Assembly: GCF_003386165.1 (NCBI RefSeq)
Contig: NZ_QRDV01000001.1
Coordinates: forward strand, 124,001 to 188,000
Reading direction: 5' to 3'
Length of the DNA: 64,000 bases
Origin: Winogradskyella eximia
GTDB taxonomy: Bacteria; Bacteroidota; Bacteroidia; Flavobacteriales; Flavobacteriaceae
Shown here: piece by piece, positions 20,277 through 28,190 of the stretch
Layout of the letters: every line of letters starts with the position of its first letter
Numbering within the stretch: position 1 is the first letter of the stretch
Made by a program: the position numbers and the translations under genes
The notes under the pieces: generated by a model
The model's input: the letters and a program-made list of their open reading frames with translations, nothing else
What the model was told of the DNA's origin: nothing
Database searches by the model: none

Positions 20277-23200
20277 ATGACCAATTTCGAAACCATAAAA
20301 CAAAAGCTAGAGCAATTCATTAAAAGGTATTATACTAATGAATTATTAAAAGGTGCTATCTTATTTTTCGCCATTGGTTTACTATATCTTATAATTACAT
20401 TATTCGTAGAATATGTGTTATGGCTTAATCCAACAGCTAGAACGATATTATTTTGGATGTTTATCGCAGTAGAATTAGCACTCTTCGTAAAGTTTATAGC
20501 CATTCCGTTGTCACATTTATTCAAATTAAAACAAGGCATAAATTTTGAAACGGCTTCAAAACTTATAGGAAATCATTTCCCAGAAGTGAACGATAAATTA
20601 TTAAACGTACTTCAACTTAATCAAAGCCCTCAACAATCCGATTTATTATTAGCAAGTATAGAGCAGAAGTCGCAAGAGTTACAACCCATTCCTTTTAAAT
20701 CAGCCGTTAACTTTAAATCCAATACCAAATATTTAAAATATGCGGCTATTCCTATTGCTATTTTATTGTTGTCGTTTGTTACCGGAAAAATAAATTGGTT
20801 TAGTGATAGTTACGAACGTGTTGTTAATTACAAAACGGCATACGAACCACCAGCACCTTTTCAGTTTTTTGTATTGAATGAATCGCTTCAAGCTATAGAA
20901 AATAAAGATTTTAAGTTACAAGTTTCAACTGCAGGAAATGTGATTCCTGAGAACGCACAAATTAAATTTAACGGTCAATCGTACTTTTTGCAACAAATTG
21001 CAGCTGGCGAATTTCAGTACACATTCAATCTTCCAAAAGAAGCTGTTGAGTTTACCTTATCAGCAAATGATGTCACATCAAAACCGTATAAATTAACTGT
21101 AGTGAACACACCAAATTTGGTGAATTTTGAAATGGTGTTAGATTACCCTTCGCACACCAAAAAGCAAGATGAAGTTTTAAAAAGTACGGGTTCTGCTGTA
21201 ATTCCTGAAGGGACTATAATCACCTGGAAAGCAAAGACAAAATCGACGACAGGTGTTCATATTTATGCTGAAGATACCTTAAGTTTTAAGTCTAAAGACA
21301 ACGTTAATTTTGAAGCATCAAAGCAACTTTATAAAAATTACAATTACAGTATTACAACAAGTAATGGTGATTTAAAAGATTACGAGAATTTGGCGTACAA
21401 TATTAATGTAGTAAAGGATATTTATCCAGAGTTGAATATCAAGGTTCAAAAAGATTCAATAGACCAACAAAGTTTGTATTTCTATGGTCAAGCAAGTGAT
21501 GATTATGGTTTAACCAAATTACAATTGGTGTATTATCCTAGTGAAGATGAATCAAAAAAAGTAGTAGAGCCTATTAATATTTCAAAGTCTAATTTTAGTG
21601 AGTTTGTTAGCGCGTTTCCAAATCAATTCAATCTAGAAGATGGTGTAAGCTACCAATTGTATTTTGAAGTTTTTGATAACGATGCACTACATAATTATAA
21701 GCGTACAAAAAGTTCAACATTTAGTTACCGAAAATTGACTAAAGACGAAGAAGAGCAAAAACAGCTTAATGAACAGAACGAAACGATAAAGGATATCAGT
21801 AAAACGTTCGATAAACTTCAAGAACAAGATAAAAAGCTTGAAGAATTATCTAAAACCCAAAAGGAAAAAGAAAGTCTAAATTTTAATGACAAGAAGAAAT
21901 TTGAAGAGTTCTTAAAACGTCAGAAAAATCAGGAACAGTTGATGAAAAATTTCAACAAAAAACTGCAAGATAATTTAGAAGAATTTCAAAAGGACGAAAA
22001 TAAAGACGACCAATTTAAAGAAGATTTAAAGGAACGTTTAAAAGAGAATGAAGAACAATTAAAGAAAGACGAAGAATTACTCAAAGAGCTTGAAGAATTA
22101 AAGGATAAAATTAACAAGGAAGAGTTCACACAAAAACTCGAAGAATTAGCCAAACAAAACAAGAATAAGAAACGTAGCATGAAGCAACTTTTAGAGTTGA
22201 CCAAGCGTTTCTATGTGATGAAAAAAGCTGAGAAAGTTTCAAGTGAATTAGAAAAACTAGCAGAAGAACAAGAAGAATTATCCAAAAAGGAAAAAGAAAA
22301 CACCAAAGAAGCTCAAGAAAAATTGAACGAGGAGTTTGATAAACTTCAAAAAGATTTAGAAGATTTAAAACGCGAAGACAGGCAACTTCAAAAACCTATG
22401 AAGATTGCGAGAGATGAATTTTTAGAAGATGAGATAAAATTCGACCAAAAGGAAGCCAAAGAAGCCTTAGAACAGAAAGAAGATAGTGAATCTAAAGAAG
22501 ATGCTGAAAAGGCTAAAGAACAGCAAGAAAAAGCTAAAAAGAAGCAAAAGCAAGCTGCTCAGAAAATGAAGGAAATCAGTGATATGCTAAAGAAAGCTGC
22601 AGCTGGTGGAGGAGGTGGTGGAGACCAAGCGGCAGAAGATATTGATGCTTTACGTCAAATATTAGAAAATTTGTTACTGTATTCCTTCGACCAAGAGGCT
22701 CTTATGGAAACTTTTGAAAGTATAGGAATCAATAATAATAACTACGGAAAGTACATTATTCAACAAAGTAATTTAAGAGAACATTTTGAACATATAGATG
22801 ATAGTTTGTTTGCCTTATCCTTGAGACAACCTAAGATTTCTGAAAAAGTGAATTCGCAAATTACAGAGGTTTATTTTAACATTGATAAAGCGTTAGAGCA
22901 GCTCTCAGAAAATCGATTGTACCAAGGCGTTGGTGCACAACAATACGCGGTAACTTCTACTAATGAATTAGCGAGTTTTTTAAGTGATGTTTTAGATAAT
23001 ATGGAAATGGATATGAATCCGTCTCAAGGGGAAGGCGAAGGAGAATCTCAATTGGAAGATATTATTATGAGTCAAGAAGAACTCAATAAAAAGATGGAAG
23101 AAGGCGTAAAGAAAGGTGAAGAGGGTAAAGAAGGAGAAAAGGGTGAAGAAGGCGATAAGGGTAAGGAAGGAGATGGACAGAAGCCTGGTAAAGATGGCAA

Positions 23201-23924
23201 GGATGGAAAAGAAGGTGAAGGTGAAAAACCAGGTGATAAGGGTAAAGCTGGAAAAGAAGGAAAGGACGGTAAAAGCGGTGATAACGGTAAGAGTGGAGAA
23301 GGACAAGGAAAAGGTGGAAAAGGAGGAAAGTCTGGTAAGAATGGTGAACAGAAAGGTGAGGGCAATGAAGGTGGACAGAAAGAAGGTGATGGTCAAGGTA
23401 AAAATGGAGAAGGTAAGGGCAAGAATGGAAAAGATGGTAAAAATGGTGGTGATGGAAATGGCGAAGGTGAAGGCGAAAAAAATGACGGTTATGGCGAAGG
23501 TGGAAGTGAGGAGCAAAATGGAGAATTATTTAAAATTTATCAGAAACAACAATTATTGCGTCAAGCACTAGAAGACAGACTTGGTAAGGAAGGAAAAATT
23601 GAATCTGCCGGACAATTAATAAAGCAAATGGAAGAGATTGAACTCGATTTGTTGAATACAGGATTTACAAACCAAACGCTTCAAAAAATGATGGATGTAC
23701 AGCATAAATTATTAAAGATGGAGAACGCGACTTTTATGCAAGGTCAAGATACCAAGCGTAAATCTGAAACTAATAAAGAAGAATTTAATCAAAATAATCC
23801 AAGTCAGATTCCTACGGCAAAACAATATTTTAATACAACTGAAATTTTAAATCGTCAAGCATTACCTTTGCAAAATCATTTAAAGAAAAAAATTCAAGAG
23901 TATTTTAAGAAAACCAATGATTAG
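20277..23924 (+). CDS. DUF4175 family large membrane protein with coiled coil and collagen-like region
   Basis: 1215 residues. Two membrane segments near the N-terminus (about 22-46 and 56-80) and one near 157-172 precede a large beta-rich domain (about 190-480). A long highly charged coiled coil follows (about 490-770, Lys/Glu/Gln-rich), then a Gly-rich linker, a helical region, and a low-complexity tract (about 940-1085) with Gly at every third position over long stretches (GKDGKDGKEGEG...). This matches the Bacteroidota DUF4175 architecture. The function is unknown; the body probably lies outside the cytoplasm. It overlaps ybeY by 8 nt. Confidence 0.88.
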   Translation: MTNFETIKQKLEQFIKRYYTNELLKGAILFFAIGLLYLIITLFVEYVLWLNPTARTILFWMFIAVELALFVKFIAIPLSHLFKLKQGINFETASKLIGNHFPEVNDKLLNVLQLNQSPQQSDLLLASIEQKSQELQPIPFKSAVNFKSNTKYLKYAAIPIAILLLSFVTGKINWFSDSYERVVNYKTAYEPPAPFQFFVLNESLQAIENKDFKLQVSTAGNVIPENAQIKFNGQSYFLQQIAAGEFQYTFNLPKEAVEFTLSANDVTSKPYKLTVVNTPNLVNFEMVLDYPSHTKKQDEVLKSTGSAVIPEGTIITWKAKTKSTTGVHIYAEDTLSFKSKDNVNFEASKQLYKNYNYSITTSNGDLKDYENLAYNINVVKDIYPELNIKVQKDSIDQQSLYFYGQASDDYGLTKLQLVYYPSEDESKKVVEPINISKSNFSEFVSAFPNQFNLEDGVSYQLYFEVFDNDALHNYKRTKSSTFSYRKLTKDEEEQKQLNEQNETIKDISKTFDKLQEQDKKLEELSKTQKEKESLNFNDKKKFEEFLKRQKNQEQLMKNFNKKLQDNLEEFQKDENKDDQFKEDLKERLKENEEQLKKDEELLKELEELKDKINKEEFTQKLEELAKQNKNKKRSMKQLLELTKRFYVMKKAEKVSSELEKLAEEQEELSKKEKENTKEAQEKLNEEFDKLQKDLEDLKREDRQLQKPMKIARDEFLEDEIKFDQKEAKEALEQKEDSESKEDAEKAKEQQEKAKKKQKQAAQKMKEISDMLKKAAAGGGGGGDQAAEDIDALRQILENLLLYSFDQEALMETFESIGINNNNYGKYIIQQSNLREHFEHIDDSLFALSLRQPKISEKVNSQITEVYFNIDKALEQLSENRLYQGVGAQQYAVTSTNELASFLSDVLDNMEMDMNPSQGEGEGESQLEDIIMSQEELNKKMEEGVKKGEEGKEGEKGEEGDKGKEGDGQKPGKDGKDGKEGEGEKPGDKGKAGKEGKDGKSGDNGKSGEGQGKGGKGGKSGKNGEQKGEGNEGGQKEGDGQGKNGEGKGKNGKDGKNGGDGNGEGEGEKNDGYGEGGSEEQNGELFKIYQKQQLLRQALEDRLGKEGKIESAGQLIKQMEEIELDLLNTGFTNQTLQKMMDVQHKLLKMENATFMQGQDTKRKSETNKEEFNQNNPSQIPTAKQYFNTTEILNRQALPLQNHLKKKIQEYFKKTND
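23110..23520 (+). repeat. Purine-rich low-complexity coding repeat (Gly-X-Y-like)
   Basis: The plus strand is almost all A and G here because it encodes Gly, Lys, Glu and Asp in a Gly-X-Y-like pattern. The purine bias leaves long open frames on the other strands, which I regard as artefacts. Confidence 0.8.
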
Positions 23925-24330
23925 TTTTAACTACGAAACCGATTTTAATTTAGACGAAGAACAAGGTTTTTCAGACTGGATTAGCAATACCATTTTAGAA
24001 GAACATTGTAAAGAAGGAGAGATAAATTACATTTTTTGTTCAGACGATTATTTACACAAATTGAATGTTGATTTCTTAAATCACGATACACTAACGGACA
24101 TTATTAGCTTCGATTATTCAGTAGGAAAAGAACTACATGGTGATATTTATATTTCAGTGGATAGAGTGAAGGAAAATGCTTCAGATTTTAAAGTATCTTT
24201 TGATGATGAAATGGCGCGAGTAATCATTCATGGAGTGCTGCATTATTGTGGTTACAAAGATAAATCGGAAGACGATGAAAAGATGATGAGGTCTAAAGAG
24301 GATTACTACTTAGCAAAGCGAAATCTATAG
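23917..24330 (+). CDS. ybeY: Endoribonuclease YbeY (rRNA maturation factor)
   Basis: 137 residues, close to family size. YbeY is a zinc-dependent protein needed for 16S rRNA 3'-end processing and ribosome quality control. The metal motif is HGVLHYCGYKD near residues 108-118: the first two His match HxxxH, while the third ligand, His in E. coli, is Asp here, which I believe is usual in Bacteroidota. The conserved segment LNHDTLTDIISFDY is also present. The start overlaps the end of the DUF4175 gene by 8 nt, indicating coupled translation. Confidence 0.93.
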   Translation: MISFNYETDFNLDEEQGFSDWISNTILEEHCKEGEINYIFCSDDYLHKLNVDFLNHDTLTDIISFDYSVGKELHGDIYISVDRVKENASDFKVSFDDEMARVIIHGVLHYCGYKDKSEDDEKMMRSKEDYYLAKRNL

Positions 24331-24378: not shown

Positions 24379-24394
24379 TGTTCCACGTGGAACA
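24379..24394. other. parS-type ParB-binding palindrome, upstream of mnmG
   Basis: TGTTCCACGTGGAACA is a perfect 16-bp palindrome and matches the widely conserved chromosomal parS consensus (TGTTNCACGTGAAACA family). It lies 14 nt before the mnmG ATG. Confidence 0.85.
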
Positions 24395-24408
24395 AAATAA
24401 AGTTCAAT

Positions 24409-26280
24409 ATGTTTAACGAAGAATATGATGTTATAGTTGTTGGTGCAGGTCACGCAGGAAGTGAAGCTGCTGCGGCTGCTGCAAATATGGGAAGCAAAAC
24501 ATTATTGATTACCATGAATCTTCAAAACATCGCTCAGATGTCTTGTAATCCTGCAATGGGAGGAATAGCAAAAGGACAAATTGTAAGAGAGATTGATGCG
24601 CTTGGAGGTTATAGCGGAATCGTTTCAGACACATCTGCTATACAATTTAAGATGCTTAATAAATCTAAAGGACCTGCAATGTGGAGTCCTAGAGTGCAAT
24701 CTGATAGAATGCGTTTTGCGGAAGATTGGAGAATGCTTTTAGAAGGAACCGAAAATCTTGATTTCTATCAAGAGATGGTATCTGGTCTTATTGTTGAAAA
24801 TCACAAAGTGGTTGGTGTAAAAACATCTCTTGGAGTTGAGGTAAGAGCAAAGTCGGTTGTGCTTACTAATGGAACTTTTTTAAATGGATTAATTCATATT
24901 GGTGATAAGAATTTTGGAGGAGGAAGAGCAGGTGAAAGAGCGGCAACCGGAATTACAGAACAACTTGTAAATTTAGGTTTCGAATCTGGAAGAATGAAAA
25001 CAGGAACACCACCAAGAGTTGATGGTCGTTCTTTAGATTTTTCAAAAATGGTTGAACAACCTGGTGATGAGAATCCTGAAAAATTTTCATATTTGGATAT
25101 TACAAAACCACTAACACATCAGCGTTCTTGTCATTTGACTTATACGAGTGAAGCGGTCCATGATTTATTGCGTGAAGGTTTTGACCGTTCACCAATGTTT
25201 AACGGTCGAATTAAAAGTGTTGGTCCAAGATATTGTCCTTCTATTGAAGATAAAATTAATCGATTTGCTGATAAGGATAGACATCAATTATTTGTAGAAC
25301 CAGAAGGGTGGAATACATGCGAATATTATATAAATGGGTTCTCTACGTCGTTACCAGAAGATGTTCAGTTTAAAGCATTGCGTTCTGTGGTTGGTTTTGA
25401 AAACGTAAAATTCTTTAGACCAGGTTATGCAATTGAATACGATTATTTTCCACCAACCCAATTAAAGCACACATTAGAAACTAAGTTAGTTGAGGGCTTA
25501 TATTTCGCTGGTCAGATAAATGGAACTACGGGTTACGAAGAAGCAGCTTCTCAAGGTTTGATGGCTGGTATTAATGCGTGTTTAAAAGTGCAAGAAAAGG
25601 AAGCGTTTACATTACAGCGTGATGAAGCTTATATTGGCGTTTTGATAGATGACTTAATTACAAAAGGTACTGAAGAGCCTTATAGAATGTTTACATCTCG
25701 TGCAGAATATAGAACGCTTTTAAGGCAAGATAATGCAGACTTTAGGTTAACACCAAAAGGTTATGGTTTAGGTTTAGCATCGGAAAAACGATTAAAGCGT
25801 ATGGAAGAAAAGCAATCTAAATCTGAAGCTTTTGTGCAGTTTTTTAAAGATACAAGTATAACACCAGATGAAGCTAATCCTGTTTTAGAATCTAAGAATT
25901 CTGCAACCGTTAAGCAGCAAGATAAAATGTTTAAGTTATATGCTCGACCAAATATTACAATAGATGATGTACGTAAATTTGAAGCTGTAGAGAATTATAT
26001 TCAGGCTAATGATTTAGATAATGAAGTGATAGAGCAAACCGAAATTCAAGTGAAATATGCTGGGTATATTGAGAAGGAAAAGAACAATGCTGATAAATTA
26101 AATCGATTGGAAAATTTAAAGATTCCTGCTGATTTTGATTATTCAAAATTGAAATCCATGAGTATAGAGGCTAGGCAAAAATTAGATAAAATTAAACCAG
26201 TAACCATTTCTCAAGCATCTCGAATTAGTGGAGTTTCACCTAATGATATTTCTGTTTTACTTGTTTATTTAGGAAGATAA
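24409..26280 (+). CDS. mnmG: tRNA uridine 5-carboxymethylaminomethyl modification enzyme MnmG (GidA)
   Basis: 623 residues, the usual length. With MnmE it forms the cmnm5 group at the wobble uridine of several tRNAs, using FAD, NADH and methylene-THF. Seen: the FAD-binding VIVVGAGHAGSEAAAAAANMG at residues 9-29, the family motif CNPAMGGIAKGQIVREIDALGG near 46-67, GTPPRVDGRS with the conserved region near 200, and GLYFAGQINGTTGYEEAASQG near 365. The C-terminal helical domain ends with ASRISGVSPNDISVLLVYL. Both flanks carry parS palindromes, in keeping with the common placement of gidA near the replication origin. Confidence 0.97.
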   Translation: MFNEEYDVIVVGAGHAGSEAAAAAANMGSKTLLITMNLQNIAQMSCNPAMGGIAKGQIVREIDALGGYSGIVSDTSAIQFKMLNKSKGPAMWSPRVQSDRMRFAEDWRMLLEGTENLDFYQEMVSGLIVENHKVVGVKTSLGVEVRAKSVVLTNGTFLNGLIHIGDKNFGGGRAGERAATGITEQLVNLGFESGRMKTGTPPRVDGRSLDFSKMVEQPGDENPEKFSYLDITKPLTHQRSCHLTYTSEAVHDLLREGFDRSPMFNGRIKSVGPRYCPSIEDKINRFADKDRHQLFVEPEGWNTCEYYINGFSTSLPEDVQFKALRSVVGFENVKFFRPGYAIEYDYFPPTQLKHTLETKLVEGLYFAGQINGTTGYEEAASQGLMAGINACLKVQEKEAFTLQRDEAYIGVLIDDLITKGTEEPYRMFTSRAEYRTLLRQDNADFRLTPKGYGLGLASEKRLKRMEEKQSKSEAFVQFFKDTSITPDEANPVLESKNSATVKQQDKMFKLYARPNITIDDVRKFEAVENYIQANDLDNEVIEQTEIQVKYAGYIEKEKNNADKLNRLENLKIPADFDYSKLKSMSIEARQKLDKIKPVTISQASRISGVSPNDISVLLVYLGR

Positions 26281-26285
26281 AATAA

Positions 26286-26301
26286 TGTTCCACGTGAAAC
26301 A
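26286..26301. other. parS-type ParB-binding site, downstream of mnmG
   Basis: TGTTCCACGTGAAACA fits the parS consensus exactly and lies 5 nt after the mnmG stop. It is the second site of a pair about 1.9 kb apart. Confidence 0.88.
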
Positions 26302-26323: not shown

Positions 26324-26472
26324 ACACCCCTAGAATCCCCTCAAGGGGAGAATAGTTCTAACAATGTTTTAGTAATTCTGATTGTAAATATTTGTTTAAA
26401 AAACACCTTTTATTATCAGCTAGTAAAATTTTTAATTTATAAATTATCCCCTTAAGGAGAATCTAGGGATGT
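26324..26472. repeat. Imperfect inverted repeat with 30-bp arms (REP/MITE-like)
   Basis: ACACCCCTAGAATCCCCTCA and the following AGGGGAGAAT (26324-26353) are nearly the reverse complement of 26443-26472. Each arm itself contains a small palindrome around CCCCTnAAGGGG. The C/G-rich arms stand out from the AT-rich surroundings. The 89-bp interior encodes nothing visible. Confidence 0.7.
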
Positions 26473-26554: not shown

Positions 26555-27415
26555 GTGCCAAACAATAAACAAACATACCTAACCCTAAAAGATCATTCGG
26601 TTTCTCGCGACCAGTTCCAATTATTATATAATAAGGAACTTGATATGTTAGAAACTTTTCCTCAACCAAAGGGAGAAAAGTTGTCTGAATATTATAAAAG
26701 TGAAGACTATATTTCGCACACAGATACGAAGCGAAATCTATTAGAATTTGCATACCACAAAGTGAGGGAAATTTCTCTAAAGCGAAAATTGAAATTGATT
26801 AATTCTTTTAAGTCAGATACTAAATCATTATTGGATATTGGATGCGGAACAGGTGATTTTTTACAAACGGCTTTAAATGATAATTGGAAGGTTACAGGAA
26901 TTGAACCAAACGAAAGCGCGCGTAAAATAGCAAATTCAAAAACTAATAATTCTGTTTTTGAAACTAAGGAATTAGTAAAACTAAAACCTAATAGTTTTGA
27001 CGTTATTACACTTTGGCATGTCTTAGAACATTTACCAGATTTAGAAATGCATACTACATTATTTAAATCACTTTTAAAAACAAATGGCACTTTGGTAATT
27101 GCTGTTCCTAATTATAAAAGTTACGATGCAGAATATTATAAAAACTTTTGGGCAGCTTTTGATGTGCCAAGACATCTTTGGCATTTTTCTAAAATTTCAA
27201 TTTCAGAATTATTTACAACTAAGAATATGACATTGGTAAAAACCTTACCAATGAAATTTGATGCATATTATGTCTGTTTACTTTCCGAAAAATATAAATC
27301 AGGATTTATGAATCCCATCAAAGCATTTTGGATAGGATGGCAATCAAATCGTAAGGCAAAACACTCTAAGGAGTATTCTTCGCATATTTATGTCTTACAG
27401 AATGCTAAATCTTAA
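26555..27415 (+). CDS. Class I SAM-dependent methyltransferase
   Basis: 286 residues from a GTG start; the N-terminal segment LLYNKELDMLETFPQP before the first ATG looks like part of the domain, so I keep the GTG. The SAM-binding motif LLDIGCGTGDFLQ lies near residues 90-102, with motif II GIEPNESA near 115 and the post-motif FDVITLWHVLEHLPD near 150. It resembles the Methyltransf_23 type enzymes next to mnmG in many flavobacteria. The substrate is unknown. Confidence 0.88.
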   Translation: MPNNKQTYLTLKDHSVSRDQFQLLYNKELDMLETFPQPKGEKLSEYYKSEDYISHTDTKRNLLEFAYHKVREISLKRKLKLINSFKSDTKSLLDIGCGTGDFLQTALNDNWKVTGIEPNESARKIANSKTNNSVFETKELVKLKPNSFDVITLWHVLEHLPDLEMHTTLFKSLLKTNGTLVIAVPNYKSYDAEYYKNFWAAFDVPRHLWHFSKISISELFTTKNMTLVKTLPMKFDAYYVCLLSEKYKSGFMNPIKAFWIGWQSNRKAKHSKEYSSHIYVLQNAKS

Positions 27416-27626: not shown

Positions 27627-28190
27627 ATGAAAAAAATAATTTTAAGTTTAACAGTATTAGTTGCATTAGCATCTTGTCAAGAACAACAGAAAATTGCTTT
27701 CGTTGATAATGGAAAAGTTATTAATGACTATCAAATGAAAATTGATATCGAAGATAAGTTTAAGCAAAAGGATGAAGTGTTTAAATTAAGAATGGATAGT
27801 ATTGGTAAAGCTTTTCAAGCAGAAGCACAAGCGTTTCAAGCTAAAGAACAATCGTTATCTGCTAAAGCACGTCAAGAAATGTATCAAAGTTTAACTCAAA
27901 AACAGCAAGGGTTACAACAACAGTTTCAATATGAGCAACAACAAATGCAACAATTATTTAGTGTAGAAATGGATTCTGTAATTTCTAAGGTGAATACATT
28001 TGTTAATGATTACGGTAAAAAGAATGGTTACACTTATATTTTGGGAAAAAATGAAGCTGGTAGTGTAATGTTCGGAAAAGAAGAGAATGATATTTCTGAA
28101 GCAGTTACAAAAGCTATTAACGCTGCTTATGGAGAAAAAGAGACTAAAACAGAAGATAAATCTGAAGTTGAAGCTACTACTGAGAAGTAA
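27627..28190 (+). CDS. OmpH/Skp-family periplasmic chaperone-like lipoprotein
   Basis: 187 residues. The start (MKKIILSLTVLVALASCQEQ) carries a lipobox with Cys near residue 17, so it is probably membrane-anchored, unlike soluble E. coli Skp. KIAFVDNGKVINDYQ at about 22-36 is the family opening, followed by a Gln/Lys-rich helical hairpin (about 45-125) that forms the tentacles in Skp trimers, and a closing YGKKNGYTYILGKNEAGSVMFG. The C-terminal tail is acidic. It likely guards unfolded outer-membrane proteins in the periplasm. Confidence 0.88.
   Translation: MKKIILSLTVLVALASCQEQQKIAFVDNGKVINDYQMKIDIEDKFKQKDEVFKLRMDSIGKAFQAEAQAFQAKEQSLSAKARQEMYQSLTQKQQGLQQQFQYEQQQMQQLFSVEMDSVISKVNTFVNDYGKKNGYTYILGKNEAGSVMFGKEENDISEAVTKAINAAYGEKETKTEDKSEVEATTEK

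Follow-up and report, generated by a model that had tools for sequence, protein, structure and literature searches.

Paired parS-type sites flanking mnmG in Winogradskyella eximia as the probable centromere of a chromosomal ParABS system

Introduction

The tRNA modification gene mnmG (gidA) of Winogradskyella eximia stands between two short palindromes of the parS type, which raises the question of whether these sites serve the chromosome, the enclosed gene, or both. The window considered here is the whole stretch of 64,000 nucleotides that was analysed, and the features of the locus within it are collected in Table 1. The question is approached through the rarity of the sites in the genome, the ParB protein that could read them, their conservation in relatives, and their position with respect to the replication origin, dnaA and parAB.

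Table 1. Features of the mnmG locus in the window
Feature	Position	Strand	Basis or placement
Putative parS site 1, TGTTCCACGTGGAACA, perfect palindrome	24379..24394	.	14 nt 5' of mnmG ATG
Putative parS site 2, TGTTCCACGTGAAACA	26286..26301	.	5 nt 3' of mnmG stop codon
mnmG/gidA, bracketed gene, tRNA U34 modification enzyme	24409..26280	+	ORF; TIGR00136, PF01134
ybeY, rRNA maturation RNase, upstream neighbour	23917..24330	+	TIGR00043
Class I SAM methyltransferase, downstream neighbour	26555..27415	+	PF13489
OmpH-like protein, gene after methyltransferase	27627..28190	+	PF03938

The Two Sites and Their Rarity in the Genome

Both 16-mers lie where the original prediction had placed them, on either side of mnmG, with the claimed 14 nt between site 1 and the start codon. 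The product of the bracketed gene matches the TIGR00136 profile with 857 bits (cut-off 525). The sites follow a 16-bp palindrome that fits the parS consensus, quoted as TGTTTCACGTGAAACA in PMC10197239. The claim that the window holds no other such site also stands, as none besides the pair was found at up to two mismatches; at three mismatches there are four more matches, with a chance mean of 2.7 in all.

A genome-wide search for the 16-mer returned few copies, gathered in one region of the chromosome rather than spread evenly around it. In the draft genome (G000; 4,242,526 bases, 27 contigs), TGTTNCACGTGNAACA occurs exactly twice, both times at mnmG and with a spacing of 1.9 kb, while a first-order Markov model gives 0.012 expected exact matches per genome. 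When up to two mismatches are allowed, 18 matches appear (2 exact, 1 with one mismatch at C5:150999, and 15 with two), and the reversed control pattern yields 20; thus, only the exact pair stands out. Chance 16-mers are ruled out by this rarity, by the reversed-pattern control and by the conservation described below.

The surroundings of the locus show two further features. Between site 2 and the methyltransferase gene lie inverted repeat arms of REP/MITE-like appearance (CCCTAGAATCCCCTCAAGGGGA, 26328-26349, and an inverted copy with three mismatches, 26447-26468). A related arm with two mismatches is present on the same contig (L143:19634), and no other match at up to five mismatches was found in the window and 400 kb of stretches from the same genome. 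Directly upstream of ybeY, a 1215-aa protein (20277-23924) contains a long Gly/Lys/Glu-rich stretch and matches DUF4175 weakly, with 25.6 bits, below the cut-off of 27.3.

The ParA and ParB Proteins of the Genome

The absence of a ParB homologue would have counted against the original prediction. The genome encodes one ParB_N protein, whose gene directly follows that of a ParA-type ATPase, as judged by open reading frames and family profiles. This single adjacent pair is located on contig C7 and not on the contig of mnmG and the sites. A ParB_N match was also found in all 149 genomes of the family set described below.

The choice between parS and the related NBS sequence depends on residues 173 and 201, which are R173 and G201 in ParB and Q173 and R201 in Noc (PMC7383237). 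The ParB of W. eximia has the parS-type pair, R and G. More broadly, the equivalents of Caulobacter ParB Q162, G170, K171, R173, N178, G201 and R204 are Q, G, K, R, N, G and R, in a register set by the GK.R motif and a 31-residue spacing rather than by direct alignment with Caulobacter ParB. Two positions count against this assignment: the equivalent of S172, a residue kept in both ParB and Noc according to PMC7383237, is K, and K is also found at 184, where it is permissive in the manner of Noc. Position 179 is Y. The protein is thereby predicted to be a cognate ParB with parS-type DNA recognition residues, accompanied by ParA, with K in place of S172.

The solved proteins nearest to this ParB are ParB family proteins and Spo0J, followed by Noc, and its residues 39-235 align to solved ParB family proteins. 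Its score against TIGR04285 is 242 bits, below the cut-off of 315. Both GERR and ENIQR, which we take to be ParB CTP-binding motifs, are present, and the protein may accordingly be a CTP-dependent clamp. The Noc/NBS system of Firmicutes, in which a paralogous protein acts on a related palindrome, fits less well: the Noc-type residues Q173 and R201 are absent here (R and G), and, unlike NBS sites, which are scattered around the chromosome (PMC4331003), the exact sites of W. eximia are not scattered.

The core of the original prediction is borne out in that the sites are rare, paired and conserved, and that the genome encodes a chromosomal ParB whose recognition residues are of the parS type. 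Judged from these sequences, the two sites are very probably the chromosomal parS, or centromere, of a ParABS system in this bacterium. The single parAB pair, located in another part of the chromosome, would supply the ParB, which would be loaded at each site in the form of a CTP-dependent clamp and slide over mnmG and the neighbouring DNA. ParA would then move ParB, so that the origin-side region segregates first. Loading, spreading and ParA-driven movement are proposed here by analogy with the ParABS family (PMC7333895).

Conservation at the mnmG Loci of Close Relatives

Conservation was followed in the best 80 of 590 loci from an MnmG protein scan, among which the closest protein is that of Winogradskyella eckloniae (96%). 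With at most two mismatches allowed, the 300 nt upstream of mnmG contain a site in 78 of these 80 loci, the 300 nt downstream in 76, and both flanks in 75; neither flank has one in a single locus, that of a Capnocytophaga MAG (L110). At least one site with no more than one mismatch is present in 76 of the 80. The density of sites near mnmG is 0.00378 per bp (190 in 50,286 bp), and it falls to 0.000029 per bp (45 in 1,539,996 bp) elsewhere in the same loci. The neighbouring genes are kept as well: ybeY is directly upstream in 77 of the best 80 loci, with two of the three misses being contig ends, the methyltransferase gene is downstream in 75, and the OmpH-like gene was found in 41.

Among the 190 near sites, which were preselected at two mismatches or fewer, positions 2-4, 11, 13 and 15 are invariant and the end positions 1 and 16 drift. 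The centre ACGT is retained in 175 of them, a conservation that is partly built in because the search pattern fixed the centre. Positions 5 and 12, left free in the pattern, carry C or T and G or A, with the C-A combination in 39 of the 190 sites.

These patterns bear on the idea that the palindromes act as RNA, with a hairpin at either end of the mnmG transcript that would affect leader stability or termination. Site 1 does fold as a 7-bp hairpin, and, once the end positions 1 and 16 are set aside, most mismatches over the 190 sites of the best 80 loci affect the central four bases that would form the loop, with 16 there and 2 in the stem. However, 10 of the 16 loop mismatches are one and the same substitution, CATG for CGTG, and folding is not clearly better than that of shuffled sequences (z of -0.94 for site 1 and -0.47 for site 2). 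The would-be base pair 5/12 is a C-A mismatch in site 2 as in the 39 sites mentioned, site 2 has no terminator-like match, and the sites of one family genome (G017, discussed below) sit in other intergenic places. On the fold, C-A pair and terminator results, hairpins or terminators are judged unlikely, to the point of being barely credible.

The CATG substitution recurs in several loci. The variant TGTTCCACATGGAACA is repeated upstream of mnmG in L056, L080 and L061, from a Kordia MAG, an uncultured Flavobacteriaceae and Flavobacterium, and occurs once downstream in L101, from Tenacibaculum; these copies are possibly parS variants. With the same substitution, TGTTCCTCGTGGAACA is found downstream of mnmG in a UBA2540 MAG (L094) and in Polaribacter sp. 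BM10 (L104), and is possibly a lineage-specific parS variant that could be compared with changes in ParB. About 5 kb downstream, a further candidate for a conserved parS (TCTTCCACGTGAAACA; L049, L057, L058, L063 and L068) was considered and set aside as probably a coding coincidence. In three of the five loci, the three that were translated, it lies inside a frame encoding LPRETAGY, called lytic-transglycosylase-like here from the look of the sequence and not from a family search.

Distribution in the Family and the Phylum

The family set comprised 149 genomes, drawn evenly and at least 95% complete. Between one and three exact matches were found in 135 of them, and the reversed pattern in none. 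The exact site is absent from the other 14; four single-contig genomes with mnmG among them were checked, and these have one-mismatch copies beside the gene. Positions relative to mnmG were taken in 27 family genomes (G016 and G077 were left out), and exact sites are present in 23 of them, all within 600 nt of mnmG in 22 and clustered elsewhere in the remaining one, G017. Counted as sites, 36 of 39 lie within this distance, and the other three all belong to G017. Four of the 27 genomes have one-mismatch copies only. As 19 of the 35 one-mismatch copies in these genomes are away from mnmG, single-mismatch copies alone mean little.

One single-contig family genome of 2.7 Mb (G099) has ParB_N and DnaA matches, with no MnmG match and no exact parS. 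This absence could reflect true loss, masking of part of the sequence or faulty assembly.

At the level of the phylum, exact sites occur in 145 of 198 genomes and are absent from 53. A set of 69 genomes was drawn from the 145 with an exact site, among the matches listed, together with 37 chosen for family spread; 8 genomes of the window's own family, that of W. eximia included, were left out. The genomes were picked before the positions of mnmG were known, although some pairs could by then be seen to lie 1.9 kb apart. Within this set, selected for exact sites, such a site lies no further than 400 nt from mnmG in 56 of the 69 genomes and 27 of the 34 families, a distance into which a single site would fall by chance with a probability of about 0.00024. 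Among the 56, exact sites are upstream in 44 and downstream in 22, with 10 having both.

In the remaining 13 genomes, the exact site is 7-27 kb away (G216, G305, G175 and G318; families f9, f24 and f38), 118 kb away (G317, of family f5), 504 nt away (G168), inside mnmG (G286), or on another contig (G171, G208, G297, G301, G161 and G251). Exact matches within the mnmG reading frame were seen at G164:C1:1086925 and G286:C1:59118.

This distribution is relevant to the possibility that the sites are operators, that is, that mnmG transcription is under the control of ParB, or of another reader of CACGTG palindromes, bound 14 nt ahead of the start codon, for which reason the sites stay beside the gene. 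Site 1 falls within the presumed 5' leader, and the placement beside mnmG recurs over much of the phylum, more than an origin-side position alone demands. Yet the downstream site is nearly as frequent as the upstream one in the best 80 of 590 loci (76 and 78 of 80), so control of mnmG is not needed to explain the sites. Across the same loci, the gap from the site to the start of the mnmG match ranges from 5 to more than 100 nt. In the exceptions listed above, moreover, exact sites are kilobases from mnmG or on another contig, and mnmG has no adjacent site in G017 and L110, G017 having its sites elsewhere, with genes that flank mnmG in the window. An operator function as the reason for the sites is thus quite improbable.

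A third alternative is that parS and a local function are selected jointly, with the ParB-coated interval insulating or tuning mnmG, or with mnmG transcription helping to open or place the origin region. Sites on both flanks in 75 of the best 80 of 590 loci (at most two mismatches), and exact sites on both flanks in 10 of the 69 phylum genomes, from 7 families, speak in its favour. Counting exact sites only, however, clusters are upstream alone in f3, f4, f8 and f1 g103 genomes and downstream alone in f22, and G017 does without the bracket. We consider joint selection unlikely, and the centromere reading is retained.

Separation of Sites and mnmG in G017

The single-contig genome G017 shows the sites and the gene apart. 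Its mnmG is at 1,277,042, and its three exact sites are at 997,143-998,781, 278-280 kb away; no site at up to two mismatches was found in 20 kb around the gene. The neighbours of these sites include proteins homologous to the methyltransferase (48.5% identity) and the OmpH-like protein (45.9%, L198) that are encoded downstream of mnmG in the window; mnmG and ybeY were not found in 20 kb around the sites. As the sites sit apart from mnmG, control of this gene is not needed to explain them. Of the stretches of G017 sampled for GC skew, 7 of the 9 that reach as far as the sites, the one with the sites included, have negative values, and 8 of the 11 past them have positive values, among these both stretches between the sites and mnmG. 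This pattern speaks weakly for the sites, rather than mnmG, as the origin side.

The Capnocytophaga locus L110 is comparable in that its mnmG lacks ybeY, the methyltransferase gene and the sites. Its MnmG is 80.4% identical to that of G017, but the two G017 neighbours that were looked for in L110 were not found, which gives no sign of an event common to both.

Most likely, mnmG is a gene that happens to occupy an ancestral origin-side locus and is not the target of the sites. ParB on site 1 may possibly act as a roadblock in the mnmG leader, and the sites do not need mnmG.

Origin Side, dnaA and parAB

The original prediction pointed out that mnmG lies near oriC and parAB in many bacteria. Proximity to parAB does not hold, as parB is on another contig in W. 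eximia and, in 29 family genomes, lies 0.17-0.46 of the genome from mnmG (median 0.32). The distance from dnaA to mnmG in the same genomes, which share ancestry and are not independent, is 0.20-0.47 of the genome (median 0.34). These distances come from 29 of 30 genomes, G099 having been left out for want of an mnmG match; all are single contigs except G018, which has two, for most of them the length is known only to the nearest 100 kb, and where a genome gave several ParB_N matches, the one with the best E-value was used.

A position on the origin side finds coarse support in the GC skew of relatives, with the origin less than 90 kb from parS in three of four genomes. Skew was sampled in 20 stretches of 20 kb each in G123 (same genus), G120, G124 and G115, at intervals of 180-230 kb that limit the resolution. 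The best two-arm origin lies 89, 684, 81 and 32 kb from parS in G123, G120, G124 and G115, and 2.0, 2.0, 1.2 and 2.0 Mb from dnaA. The outlier G120 has a weak skew, and parS scores almost as well there as the best position; positions scoring better than parS amount to 10% in G115 and 4% in G123. The arm clockwise of parS is the G-rich arm in all four.

Local signals do not place the origin exactly. GC skew of the window and its own contig was rejected as an origin marker because it is too noisy. No local skew switch within 10 kb of mnmG was seen in the 61 loci with full flanks (from the best 80 of 590), and coding-strand-corrected skew is higher on the right of mnmG in only 20 of these 61. A DnaA-box cluster in the window was also discarded, since TTATNCACA was found 3 times against 3.8 expected, without enrichment. 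The mnmG–parS locus appears to belong to the origin side of the chromosome, on coarse support.

The distance to dnaA was also checked in 16 further genomes. Among the genomes from other classes than that of the window, G207, G175 and G286 have dnaA at 7.7, 27 and 57 kb from mnmG, the last of them with a second dnaA match far off. In G312, G151 and G265 dnaA is near mnmG across the record start, where values are approximate since lengths are rounded; in G153, G188, G203 and G318 it is far, 151 kb to 1.0 Mb. Within the window's class, order or family, it is 0.43-1.4 Mb off in G155, G289, G239, G201 and G309 and on another contig in G305. The pattern is suggestive, though no proof, of a history in which dnaA moved and parS and mnmG stayed where they were. 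The origin of Melioribacter roseus, a member of the Bacteroidetes/Chlorobi group, is placed between dnaA and dnaN (PMC3534657), and the E. coli oriC is reported beside gidA, which is mnmG (PMC10225481).

In ten family records (G011, G115, G120, G130, G052, G132, G062, G100, G106 and G089), a DnaA match begins less than 550 bases from coordinate 1. These records appear to be numbered from dnaA, with mnmG 0.24-0.47 of the genome away.

Discussion

In Bacillus subtilis, Caulobacter and Pseudomonas, parAB and dnaA are close to the origin and to parS. The system described here shares with them adjacent ParA and ParB genes, parS-type residues, clusters of sites that probably lie on the origin side, and the same 16-bp palindrome except for C/G at positions 5 and 12, where the purine/pyrimidine choice separates the present sites from TGTTTCACGTGAAACA. 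It differs in that parAB and dnaA of the family are far from mnmG and parS. It can be described as a ParABS centromere of the standard kind, with a gene-flanking position that is conserved to an unusual degree and with parAB and dnaA remote in the family.

Closer to Bacteroidota, parS clusters of gut bacteria, including two Bacteroidetes, were described by Hi-C (PMC10197239), with 12 genomes searched and two mismatches allowed. The present family resembles those bacteria in its clustered parS, in the use of parS and GC skew to place the origin, and in an origin that appears not always to lie at dnaA, a point already noted for gut bacteria in that paper. The same paper reports no homologue of known bacterial condensins in its two Bacteroidetes, and its main text contains no occurrence of mnmG or gidA. 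The parS survey of Livny et al. (2007), as cited in PMC10197239 and PMC7333895, is outside the scope of the literature considered, in which no description of parS flanking mnmG was recognised by title or the start of the abstract; no priority is claimed.

A wider proposal is put forward only tentatively, with the balance somewhat against it. For Bacteroidota, taken as broadly as GTDB defines them, the parS-mnmG-parS module may be the ancestral centromere, with place and gene kept while dnaA and parAB moved far in the window's class, and with the two-sided bracket itself under selection; parS, and not dnaA, would then be the right origin marker in the family. As an example of such selection, a ParB-coated interval around a steadily transcribed gene might aid ParB loading or origin opening. 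If this proposal is true, finished genomes of the family that are numbered from dnaA start far from the real origin.

For work on the family, the origin side of a chromosome can be marked from sequence alone by a parS next to mnmG, in a group in which the customary reliance on dnaA seems to be misleading. That parS is separated from both parAB and dnaA suggests that evolution fixes the position of the centromere and not the operon. Genomes such as G017, in which the sites are apart from mnmG, are natural experiments on the importance of the bracket to this gene.
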